Of a stretch of 64,000 bases of DNA, positions 40,101 through 43,646 are shown in pieces. The position numbers were made by a program, and so were the translations under genes. Position 1 is the stretch's first letter. Every line of letters starts with the position of its first letter. Source of the stretch: Pseudobutyrivibrio sp. OR37 (lineage in GTDB: Bacteria > Bacillota > Clostridia > Lachnospirales > Lachnospiraceae); contig NZ_FOQF01000008.1 of the NCBI RefSeq assembly GCF_900113655.1, forward strand, positions 1 through 64,000, in the 5' to 3' direction. A model generated the notes under the pieces. The model did not search any database, was not told where the DNA came from, and was given only the letters and a program-made list of their open reading frames with translations.

Positions 40101-42380
40101 TCAGCTTTGCCTTGAAATTAGGTACGCCTGCCCAAGGCAAAGTCCCCCATCTCCCGGTGGAAGCTGCTGGGAAGTATAAACGCTAAAGCCTCTTTCTTCC
40201 AATCCCTTTATTACCCCTTCTAACAGGATACGATTCAGGAAGGTTCCTCCTGATAGAGCTATCTGTTTTTTATCATCAAGCTGTGACGCATTTTTCTCTG
40301 CGATACTGACAACATATTTTGCCACCCCATCTATAAAGCCTCTGGCAAGACTAGCTTTTGATGCTCCATTTGATATCGCATATACGATATCTTCAAACAG
40401 CTTTTTTGTATCTCCATTTTCATCTATTGATAATGGGTACGAATCATTTGTTAAAGCCGCCACATTTTCAAGCTCAATTGGAGCCTGGCCTTCGTAGGAA
40501 TTGTAGTGACATATTTCAAGAAGGGCCGATACTGCATCAAACAATCTTCCCATGGATGTGGATGTGACTGTGTTTATATTGTTATCAATGGCCGCTTTTA
40601 TAAGCTGCTGCTCCATGGAATCCTTGTTTGCATCTGGTAGCTGTAGCCCATAGTTATGAAGCATCCCCGTCAAAATGGTATCGCAATTCTTAGCGCCTTC
40701 ATCTCCGCCTATAAGCTTCATAGGCTTCAGGTGAGCAATTCGCGTCATCTCAGATATTCCATCCCACAGGAATGTTTCGCTTCCCCATATACTTCCATCA
40801 TCACCATAGCCTGTTCCATCAAATGCGAAACCAAGCACCTTACCTGTTAGCTTATGTTCTGCAATCACCGATGCAACATGGGCTTTATGATGTTGAATCT
40901 GAATTAGCTTCAGATTAGCATTCTCAGCTGCCTCTTCTCCTGATTTTCTGCTGAAATAGCCAGGGTGCTTGTCCACTGCCATAACTTCTGGCGCAAATCC
41001 AAATATACGCTCCATAGCCGCCTTTTCATTCTGATAGAAATGCTGACAGCTAACGGATTCCATATCACCTAAATACTGGCTCACATAGGCTAATCCATTT
41101 TTCACATAGCAAAAGCTGGATTTAAGATCTCCACCTGCCGCAAACAATTCACCTGAGATATCCACACTGATAGGGTTTGGAACATAGCCCCTTGCACGTC
41201 TTATGAACTGCTGTCTACCGCAAACCACCTTCATTACAGAATCATCCATTGGACGAAGGATTCTTCTGTTATGGCTAAGTATTCCAATTGGAGTGTCCTC
41301 TATCTCTTTTGAAGCCACTCTTTCCTTTAGCCAGTTAAGCATTTTATTATCATCCGTTTCAAGCACATCCCCACTGGCATTTCCACTAGTCATAATGATT
41401 GGGCCAAGCTTTTCTGCCAGCAAAATCTGCACAGGATTACATGGAAGCATGGCACCTATAGAAGGACTGGTTAGACATACGTTGTCTGCAAGCTTCTTTT
41501 TATTATCGTATATATGTTTTAACAAAACGATAGGTCTGGCAGGGCCTTCCAAAAGCTCCTGCTCCTGGTCATTTACCTCGCAATAATCCCTAACAGAATC
41601 CACATCAGGGAACATCACTGCAAATGCCTTTGCCTCCCTATGCTTTAATATTCTAAGAGCAGCCACAGCCTTCTCATCAAAGGGATTACAGCACAGATGA
41701 TATCCACCAATATCCTTCACCGCCAGGATTCCACCTGCTGCAATAACATCAACTGCCTTTTCAAATGTATCTTCTGATTTTTCTACACCTGCCACCTGCT
41801 CAAAAGAAAGCCTTGGGCCACAGTCCTTGCAGGCAATAGTCTGGGCATGACGTCTCCTATCCAGCTTTCCTGTATATTCCTTCTCACACTCTGGGCACAT
41901 TTCAAAATCACCCATGGTGATAGTATCTCTATCGTATGGCAAGCTTTCTATTATGGAATATCTAGGCCCACAGATAGTACAGCTAATAAATGGATGCAAA
42001 TATCTTCTGTTGTTAGGATCTAGCAATTCCTCTTTACATTTATCACAGGTACAAATATCCGCAGGAATCAGCGGAAGATTTGCCTTCACATCACTGTCAG
42101 ATTCAATAATCTTAAACTGATGAGCTGATGAAAGCTCCACATCACTTTCTTGAAGCTCCTCTTCATCGATTGATGTGACAAATCCTCCTGTTGGCACATC
42201 CTTGCTAAGCCTGTTCTTTAACTCATCAAGCTTTGTCTCATCTCCTAATGCTACCACAGTAACAATGCCGCCAGTATTTCTAACATATCCTTCTATATTA
42301 AGTTCATCTGCCAGCTTGGCCACCCAAGGTCTATATCCAATCCCCTGCACCAAGCCCTTAATCGTATATTTCCTAATCAT
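40101..42380 (-). CDS. hypF: Carbamoyltransferase HypF
   Basis: About 759 residues. An acylphosphatase domain (1-90, GLVQGIGYRPWVAKLA) is followed by paired zinc-finger motifs (CTCDKC, CTICG, CPEC, CKDCG), a YrdC-like domain (about 200-380) and a Kae1-like C-terminal domain with HHKAHVASV and FDGTGYGDDG. It forms the carbamoyl group that becomes the hydrogenase cyanide ligands. The ATG at 42380 follows AAGG at a good distance; an open frame begins with TTG at 42398. First of the hyp genes. Confidence 0.96.
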   Translation of the reverse strand: MIRKYTIKGLVQGIGYRPWVAKLADELNIEGYVRNTGGIVTVVALGDETKLDELKNRLSKDVPTGGFVTSIDEEELQESDVELSSAHQFKIIESDSDVKANLPLIPADICTCDKCKEELLDPNNRRYLHPFISCTICGPRYSIIESLPYDRDTITMGDFEMCPECEKEYTGKLDRRRHAQTIACKDCGPRLSFEQVAGVEKSEDTFEKAVDVIAAGGILAVKDIGGYHLCCNPFDEKAVAALRILKHREAKAFAVMFPDVDSVRDYCEVNDQEQELLEGPARPIVLLKHIYDNKKKLADNVCLTSPSIGAMLPCNPVQILLAEKLGPIIMTSGNASGDVLETDDNKMLNWLKERVASKEIEDTPIGILSHNRRILRPMDDSVMKVVCGRQQFIRRARGYVPNPISVDISGELFAAGGDLKSSFCYVKNGLAYVSQYLGDMESVSCQHFYQNEKAAMERIFGFAPEVMAVDKHPGYFSRKSGEEAAENANLKLIQIQHHKAHVASVIAEHKLTGKVLGFAFDGTGYGDDGSIWGSETFLWDGISEMTRIAHLKPMKLIGGDEGAKNCDTILTGMLHNYGLQLPDANKDSMEQQLIKAAIDNNINTVTSTSMGRLFDAVSALLEICHYNSYEGQAPIELENVAALTNDSYPLSIDENGDTKKLFEDIVYAISNGASKASLARGFIDGVAKYVVSIAEKNASQLDDKKQIALSGGTFLNRILLEGVIKGLEERGFSVYTSQQLPPGDGGLCLGQAYLISRQS

Positions 42381-42461
42381 CAAACTTTCCTTCAACAATA
42401 GTCTTTGCCTATTTTAACACTTTCTAACGAATATTTCACTTTGTATGCAGAACCGCATCTC

Positions 42462-42747
42462 TTAATCGGCTAATGCAATACTTGAATTGACATGTCGAGA
42501 AAGACTCTAGGCCCTATCTTAGTTGCCTTGGAACGAGCTTAGTAAAATAAAAAGTGAGTTTCACATATATTGGCATGAACCGCTAGGATGGCGGTTCAAG
42601 TGCGTAAGCAACACGATGTTGCATGGAGCACGGTGCCTATATATGAGAAACCCACTTTTTTAATTTTACTTAGCGAGTGTAGTGGCAAATAAGATAGGGC
42701 CTAGAGCCTTTCTCGACATGTCACTCAGCCTAAGGTATTAGCCGATT
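42462..42747. other. Large palindromic, multi-helix element between hypF and uppP (gene-free stretch)
   Basis: No protein gene lies between 42381 and 42737. The outer arms TTAATCGGCTAAT recur inverted at 42462-42474 and at the uppP stop (about 42735-42747). A 40-bp near-perfect inverted repeat follows (42488-42527 with 42684-42723), then an inner pair (42543-42574 with 42634-42666). The centre holds hairpin GAACCGC/GCGGTTC (42577-42597) and a GTGC/GCAC stem capped by GCAAC/GTTGC. The inner stem is flanked by T-tracts on both strands, so it may also terminate transcription. A MITE-like mobile element or a structured RNA gene are both possible. Confidence 0.75.
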
Positions 42748-43595
42748 AAACCTGCGATGCCGCAGACAACGACGATAACGCCAAGGATGATTCGGTACCA
42801 TCCAAACACCTTGAAATCGTGCTTCTTGATGTAGCTCATTAGGAACTTGATTACGAACATTGATACTGCGAAGGCTACTACCATACCAACAAGAAGAATG
42901 GCTGCTTCCATGCCTGTGAATGAAAATCCGAACTTAAGGATTTTAAGAAGGCTGGCGCCAAACATTACAGGGATTGCAAGGTAAAAGGTGTACTCTGCTG
43001 CAACTGTACGTGAAACTCCGATTAAAAGGGCGCCTACGATAGTTGCTCCTGAACGTGATGTACCAGGAAAAATAGCAGCGATAAGCTGGAACATACCAAT
43101 TAAAAATGCTGTTGTGTATGTGATATCTGCTACTGCGTTAATCTTAGCGCTGTGGCCAGATTTCATATTTTCAACTACGATAAATGCTACACCAAAAATG
43201 ATAAGCATGATTGCTACTGTAGTGTAGTTGTAGAAAAGTGCTTCAAAAACATCATCCCAAAGGAGTCCTACGATGGCTGCTGGAACGCAAGAAACCAGAA
43301 TGTGGAACCAAAGTACGAAAATATCTGTCTTAATCCATGCTCCGATGCCACTCTTTGTTAAAGGTGCCTTGTTGTTCTTTTTACCAAATGGCCAAATCTG
43401 ATTCCAGAAAATAAGAACTACTGCAAGGATTGCGCCAAGCTGAATAACTACCTGGAACATGCTGTAGAATTCTTCTGAAACGTCAAGCTTAACGATTTCG
43501 TCTAAAAGAATCATGTGGCCTGTGCTACTGATTGGGAGCCATTCTGTGATACCCTCAACAATACCAAATAATATAGCTTTTAATATCTCTAACAT
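42738..43595 (-). CDS. uppP: Undecaprenyl-diphosphatase UppP (BacA)
   Basis: About 285 residues, integral membrane. The signatures EGITEWLPISSTGH near the N-terminus and PGTSRSGATIVGALL mid-protein are the two catalytic motifs. It recycles undecaprenyl pyrophosphate for cell-wall synthesis. The ATG at 43595 has GGAGG eight bases upstream; the open frame extends further but overlaps the relQ terminator. Its last codons form one arm of the palindromic element. Confidence 0.96.
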   Translation of the reverse strand: MLEILKAILFGIVEGITEWLPISSTGHMILLDEIVKLDVSEEFYSMFQVVIQLGAILAVVLIFWNQIWPFGKKNNKAPLTKSGIGAWIKTDIFVLWFHILVSCVPAAIVGLLWDDVFEALFYNYTTVAIMLIIFGVAFIVVENMKSGHSAKINAVADITYTTAFLIGMFQLIAAIFPGTSRSGATIVGALLIGVSRTVAAEYTFYLAIPVMFGASLLKILKFGFSFTGMEAAILLVGMVVAFAVSMFVIKFLMSYIKKHDFKVFGWYRIILGVIVVVCGIAGLIG

Positions 43596-43610
43596 AAAAT
43601 TATCCTCCAT

Positions 43611-43646
43611 AAAAAAAAATGAACTGTCGTTATACACGACAGCTCA
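43611..43646 (-). terminator. Terminator of the small alarmone synthetase gene
   Basis: On the minus strand TGAGCTGTCGT/ACGACAGTTCA (43646-43636 with 43630-43620, one G-T pair) is followed by nine T. It sits only about 16 bases upstream of the uppP start codon. Confidence 0.85.

Follow-up and report, generated by a model that had tools for sequence, protein, structure and literature searches.

Anatomy and identity of the palindrome

The region between uppP and hypF of Pseudobutyrivibrio sp. OR37 holds a large palindrome, which raises the question whether this locus represents a mobile DNA element, a structured RNA, or both. The palindrome (42462..42749 of the window, i.e. the whole stretch of 64,000 nucleotides of contig NZ_FOQF01000008.1 that was analyzed; no strand assigned) was delineated by arm pairing, by its fold, and by the orthologous locus in genome G008 (L066). 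As both uppP (42738..43637, minus strand; PF02673 BacA/UppP, E 9.6e-85) and hypF (40101..42398, minus strand; HypF domains in Pfam) lie on the minus strand, this intergenic element follows uppP and precedes hypF. The initial annotation had described 286 nt of nested arms around a junction with two hairpins, an outermost arm duplicating the last uppP codons, and T-tracts beside the inner stem on both strands, all of which was borne out, the right end extending 2 nt further. Positions 42462-42553 pair with 42658-42749, giving 92-nt arms that are 78% complementary, and a weaker arm similarity continues outwards (329 nt in total at 75% identity, by outward extension). The RNA fold of the 286 nt amounted to -153.8 kcal/mol, compared with a mean of -69.2 (sd 4.9) for shuffled sequences (z -17.2; 0/200 shuffles as good).

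The outermost arms are 13 bp each. The right one (42737..42749, minus strand) holds the final codons of uppP together with its stop, as judged from the sequence and the CDS position, and corresponds to the native uppP end, being identical in G008 and similar in L076 and L078. The left one (42462..42474, plus strand; TTAATCGGCTAAT) is without counterpart in G008 and is, on this comparison, an inverted copy of the native uppP 3' end. Middle arms of about 40 bp (left, 42489..42527, plus strand; right, 42684..42722, minus strand) were read from the sequence. The inner stem consists of a 5' side (42549..42575, plus strand) that is 89% complementary to, and pairs with, the 3' side (42634..42660, minus strand), and T-runs come after this stem on both strands. 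At the junction, hairpin 1 (about 42576..42598, plus strand) carries GGAU in its loop, a loop in which GGA occurs in all 43 aligned cores, and hairpin 2 (about 42600..42631, plus strand) has the loop CACGAUG, with CGA where better members have GGA; an AUGGAG is located 3' of the latter loop. The orthologous locus in G008 contains neither the junction hairpins nor the left outer arm.

The central 159 nt of the palindrome (42527..42685, plus strand) matched positions 1-168 of the Rfam model of TwoAYGGAY RNA (RF01731; cmscan, 53.9 bits, gathering score 43). This was the sole Rfam hit over the cut-off on the element, and other RNA families were therefore dropped. RF01731 was also the only family hit in ten further loci scanned against Rfam. 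Of 35 loci found by DNA similarity, 20 were scored with the model, and 17 of these exceeded the cut-off. Loop 1 of the window copy reads UAGGAU, keeping GGA and being one base short of AYGGAY, and loop 2 reads CACGAU, thus lacking GGA. On its score and its homology to better-scoring copies, the window copy is classed as a diverged TwoAYGGAY member, namely a short form whose larger anatomy is visible only in relatives. In Rfam, the family belongs to clan CL00106, which we take to be the clan of CsrA-binding RNAs. The initial annotation had recognised no match and had hesitated between a MITE-like element and an unrecorded structured RNA. The first statement was overturned by the Rfam match, as was the word unrecorded, and an unrecorded RNA was dropped as a candidate. 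The remainder of this alternative stood, since dispersed copies and paired changes were both present: the search for copies in this genome and its relatives returned many of them, a sign favouring a mobile element, and strong paired changes were found across cores and also between copies at orthologous sites.

As far as the 2010 screen deals with TwoAYGGAY, it rates this motif a likely RNA that is unlikely to regulate in cis (PMC2864571), and binding to CsrA was proposed later in remarks on this family (PMC4333381). Literature searches on CsrA and small RNA in Clostridia, MITEs in Lachnospiraceae, palindromic repeats in Butyrivibrio, and template switching and terminators returned nothing on the element.

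Distribution among genomes

RF01731 occurred in 27 of the 29 Pseudobutyrivibrio genomes, with one to at least 49 copies each, and in 0/14 control genomes. The genus was identified as Pseudobutyrivibrio from named uppP relatives. Two genomes of the genus were without a match, G010 and G026, the former nevertheless having DNA matches. These copy counts are lower bounds, as many draft contigs end inside copies, for instance in G018. Indeed, nine G018 contigs start inside matches to the TwoAYGGAY element, indicating that assemblies break there. In a survey of the best 12 candidates per genome, 22 of 61 genomes showed DNA similarity to the window copy, all of them within the genus (22/29, against 0/32 outside). 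RF01731 itself reached further, as it was retrieved from 45 of 299 sampled family genomes (43 over the cut-off), the best nine candidates per genome being scored and the genomes being taken as Lachnospiraceae, a family name that we infer. In other genera, TwoAYGGAY pairs in opposite orientation were seen about 180-300 nt apart (G036:C47:139778-140356; G036:C33:53805-54433; G089:C123:25808-26314; G259:C69:180277-180803).

Conserved loops and co-occurrence with csrA

The loops were compared with the CsrA binding consensus. GGA was present in loop 1 of 43/43 genus cores and in loop 2 of 16/43, and copies from other genera had GGA in both loops in 9/10 cases. In addition, for 40 of the 43 cores the Rfam strand gave the better fold. 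Among the family genomes, csrA accompanied RF01731 in 44 of 45 cases, and 110 of the 254 genomes lacking this RNA encoded csrA (Fisher p 1.7e-13, kinship ignored, and assuming that the same 299 genomes underlie the RF01731 and csrA surveys). The 45 genomes represent 44 genera, and the sole one without csrA (G219) is a 1.6-Mb draft; the host genome of the window encodes CsrA. This co-occurrence favours the published proposal, and the RNA may bind CsrA. A genome with csrA need not have the RNA, as no RF01731 match was found in the CsrA-bearing controls E. coli, B. subtilis, and T. maritima.

Full-length units and mobility

In relatives, the core often sits at the tip of a much longer palindrome. 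In G014, G021, and G002, the RF01731 core tips a conserved unit that measures about 480 nt, and outside this unit follows a further base stem that differs among copies and matches within one copy. The palindrome extended at least 199 nt beyond the core in 82 of the 108 genus loci (out of 111) that were followed by outward extension, an unanchored left/right alignment of whole loci being uninformative. Similarly, 9/10 copies from other genera carried matched arms of 30-80 nt. The clearest complete units measure about 730-755 bp (G025, G018) and end in inverted repeats of the CTATTCACGGACAT type. A strict search for these terminal repeats in four genomes retrieved them in two, in the form of four pairs (spacing 731-744 bp) plus three unpaired sites; the pattern was absent from G000 and G014. 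The window copy has neither terminal repeats (no pattern match in G000) nor long outer arms. The L236 unit, of 754 bp and with a slightly longer terminal repeat, was the sole unit checked for ORFs; its longest ORF-like stretch is 79 aa and it contains no transposase ORF. A partner transposon with the same ends was not seen when the strict pattern was searched in these four genomes.

Four copies of G025 (L238, L239, L240, and L242), located on different contigs, were 94-98% identical over 488-567 bp, and several sites existed without the unit. The 754 bp of the L240 unit are missing in G006, where the flanks lie 3 nt apart, as well as in G008 (8 nt) and G000 (7 nt); as G018 also carries this unit, on broken contigs, insertion versus loss is judged only from its absence in these three genomes. 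For L238, 736 bp are missing in G006, where the flanks join with an 8-nt overlap. L239 is missing in G000 and G008, where 20-25 nt separate the flanks, and its counterpart in G006 keeps the outer arms without the inner 500 bp or so, suggesting that the inner part of the palindrome was deleted there. A scenario in which the unit entered the loop of an already existing hairpin was rejected, given that this G006 counterpart, which resembled such a case at first, reads as an internal deletion and that a base stem is absent from the sites without L238 and L240. Apart from the 8-nt overlap at L238, no target-site duplication was clear at L240 or L236, and none was consistent over these three loci. 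Together, these data suggest that the element behaves like a mobile fold-back (MITE-like) element; as neither a target duplication nor, in four genomes, a partner transposon was established, it is said to behave like a MITE and not to be one.

An alternative explanation would be a purely selfish fold-back element, the hairpins of which serve transposition only and the csrA link of which reflects shared ancestry of motile lineages. Near-identical dispersed copies, terminal repeats, unit-free sites, and the absence of a long ORF agree with this explanation, as does a core that points either way, but it leaves unaccounted for the GGA kept in loop 1 of all genus cores and in both loops of nearly all copies from other genera, an association with csrA that extends over so many genera, and the fact that several species retain a copy at a shared site (L002, L064, L241, L249, and L253). 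A purely selfish element is therefore rather unlikely.

Paired changes in the arms

The outer arms of a G021 copy resemble each other more than they resemble those of other copies. In 40 of the 46 copies of G021, left-arm segments 170-205 nt from the core were 41% alike among copies, compared with 38% when shuffled, and 66% alike to the right arm of their own copy; these segments have 66% GC in loci of 41% GC. Of the 111 loci, six (L066, L070, L071, L023, L073, and L207, the last duplicating L018) were left out of the core alignment, and removal of near-duplicates kept 43 of the remaining 105. In these non-redundant cores, 94.6% of cells paired and double changes occurred in 41 of 52 pairs (285 cells), compared with 21.9 pairs and 65 cells in shuffles and also far lower values in slid controls. 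Between cores at least 90% identical, there were 82 two-sided and 36 one-sided differences, where 6.7 two-sided ones were expected if the sides changed independently. RNase P RNA from the same genus served as a control and gave 0 two-sided and 91 one-sided differences; this control is rough, as 39 of 62 pairs of the predicted structure were kept, 20 of 27 loci were used (seven longer ones being left out), and sequence pairs are not independent. As 0/27 of these loci reached the RF00011 cut-off, their identity rests on full-length matches of lower score. The RNase P RNA matches L231, L232, L233, and L234 (in G025, G006, G002, and G003, respectively) were about 80-120 nt longer than those in other genomes of the genus, which perhaps represents an expanded helix or an insertion.

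Eight comparisons of orthologous sites, with flanks 89-98% identical, some loci shared (L010, L249), and only columns palindromic in both copies counted, yielded 29 matched double changes, 26 single changes, and seven other double changes, where about five doubles were expected. Fifteen of the 29 matched doubles were transversions. The pair L235/L248, with flanks about 97% identical, contributed 13 of the 29 matched doubles, 12 of these 13 within 22 columns, and two of the eight comparisons had no matched double. Furthermore, the tip was inverted between the orthologs L034/L246 and L241/L249. The palindrome of L033 reaches into both convergent genes, the ends of which share AAGAACATTCTACATCAGA, although comparison with the counterparts in G015 suggests that both are native.

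As far as work on quasipalindromes treats it, template switching homogenises arms, makes multi-base paired changes, and inverts the loop (PMC8794818, PMC8604942). Mostly two-sided changes, transversions included, are what template switching from arm to arm predicts, and this process would explain the left outer arm of the window copy as an inverted uppP end too. Template switching between arms hence appears to be the simplest reading of the paired changes. Alternatively, these could result from ordinary stepwise compensatory selection on RNA structure. Indeed, the structure is strongly kept, and of the G.U-type mismatches in conserved arms, more point to the Rfam strand than to its complement (62 vs 24, in columns that repeat across copies and are not independent). 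This alternative is nevertheless unlikely, in view of the few one-sided intermediates, the transversions that make up half of the matched doubles, the clustered two-arm changes of L235/L248, the inverted tips, and base-stem mismatches that, in these copy-specific stems, are without strand bias (40 vs 44).

Location at gene ends

Gene context was determined for the 94 of 111 loci with a gene called on both sides, by means of codon-scored ORFs without a trained gene finder. The flanking gene pairs were tandem in 64 cases, convergent in 24, and divergent in six, compared with 67, 7, and 7, respectively, among 81 background pairs from the same loci. Stop codons facing the core were at 200-299 nt from it in 78 of 122 cases, and facing starts in 17 of 82. 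Relative to tandem genes, the core went either way (38 '--' and 26 '++'), which counts against a strictly strand-specific cis role.

Other palindromic sequences were seen at such sites. At the orthologous site of L030, L157-L161 (in G025, G006, G000, G023, and G008) have a different palindromic hairpin of about 110 nt in terminator form, where G018 has TwoAYGGAY; the loop of that hairpin is inverted in G000, and neither L157 nor L159 gave an Rfam match. Directly after uppP, L080 and L082 (similarly L081) contain a motif AGGCATCAAGCTCTTAG ... CTAAGGCTTGTAGCCGT within terminator-like stems of differing outer sequence, without an Rfam match, which is possibly another dispersed 3'-end element. Also directly after uppP, L076 and L078, in two Pseudobutyrivibrio genomes, contain repeated CTGTCACA hairpin-like units; L076 gave no Rfam match.

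A bidirectional terminator or 3'-end protector, i.e. a giant hairpin with unbound loops that ends or shields tandem and convergent transcripts, would fit the location directly after stop codons, the T-runs after the inner stem, the convergent pairs in excess of the background (24/94 vs 7/81, divergent 6/94), and the different hairpin at the L030 site in five relatives, but is quite unlikely, as a simple scan of the window region found no terminator-like site, ordinary terminators are, by eye, already present beside L047, L237, L238, and L239, and the kept GGA and the csrA link would go unexplained. Promoter-like sites in the window region were near chance (2 vs 0.9 expected).

A proposed explanation

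On balance, we lean towards the interpretation that the window feature is a diverged, short-armed TwoAYGGAY copy and that TwoAYGGAY in this genus caps a fold-back element that is dispersed through the genome and comes to lie at gene 3' ends, its GGA loops putatively binding CsrA. Firstly, the unit would spread as DNA, with up to about 755 bp between its terminal inverted repeats, as is supported by the near-identical dispersed copies and the sites without the unit. Secondly, replication would switch template at the palindrome, so that one arm is overwritten by a copy of the other, at times including the end of the neighbouring gene, and the tip becomes inverted; the paired changes, the inverted tips, and the duplicated uppP codons point to this step. 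Thirdly, the tip would be transcribed, either together with the gene upstream of it or from a separate start, and would present one or two GGA loops that bind CsrA, in line with the loop conservation and the co-occurrence with csrA. Many copies could jointly constitute a CsrA-binding reservoir, or mark mRNA 3' ends.

A bolder form of this interpretation, which we regard as rather doubtful, sees in the element a giant palindrome that moves, rewrites itself, and carries CsrA-binding RNA tips to the 3' ends of genes throughout the family. Each landing would gain its own GC-rich arms (66% vs 41% GC in G021), kept matched by replication copying, and the copies would form a distributed CsrA reservoir sized by transposition.

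The findings link an RNA family that had been an orphan with dispersed palindromes, and they broadly support, from genomes outside the Gammaproteobacteria, CsrA as its proposed partner. The many copies also serve as natural replicates in asking how the two sides of a paired stem come to change together, and template switching and stepwise compensation predict different outcomes here, given strain-level genomes. Covariation statistics on such palindromes may overstate selection on RNA.

Comparison with known systems

The element shares its core sequence and structure with TwoAYGGAY RNA, over the full model length and above the gathering score. Rfam models 168 nt, whereas here this core is often the tip of palindromes of several hundred bp, the arms of which differ among copies. 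With the CsrA-binding RNAs of clan CL00106 it has in common the GGA hairpin loop, the clan itself, and csrA in 44/45 genomes, but it has at most two GGA loops per copy and many copies per genome, and its relation to CsrA is a proposed one. MITEs are short, dispersed elements with terminal inverted repeats and no transposase ORF. The present element resembles them in its short dispersed copies, in the terminal inverted repeats of its full-length units, and, as judged from the L236 unit, in the lack of a transposase ORF. It differs from them in being almost wholly palindromic, with arms that vary among copies and no established target duplication or partner transposase, and the window copy is without the terminal ends. 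Finally, arm homogenisation, multi-base paired changes, and loop inversion recall the template-switch correction of quasipalindromes, to the extent that this is covered in PMC8794818 and PMC8604942, except that the present case concerns an element several hundred bp long that is dispersed in bacterial genomes. What is new seems to be the setting, namely dispersed giant palindromes at gene ends, with copy-specific arms that change together and a strong association with csrA.
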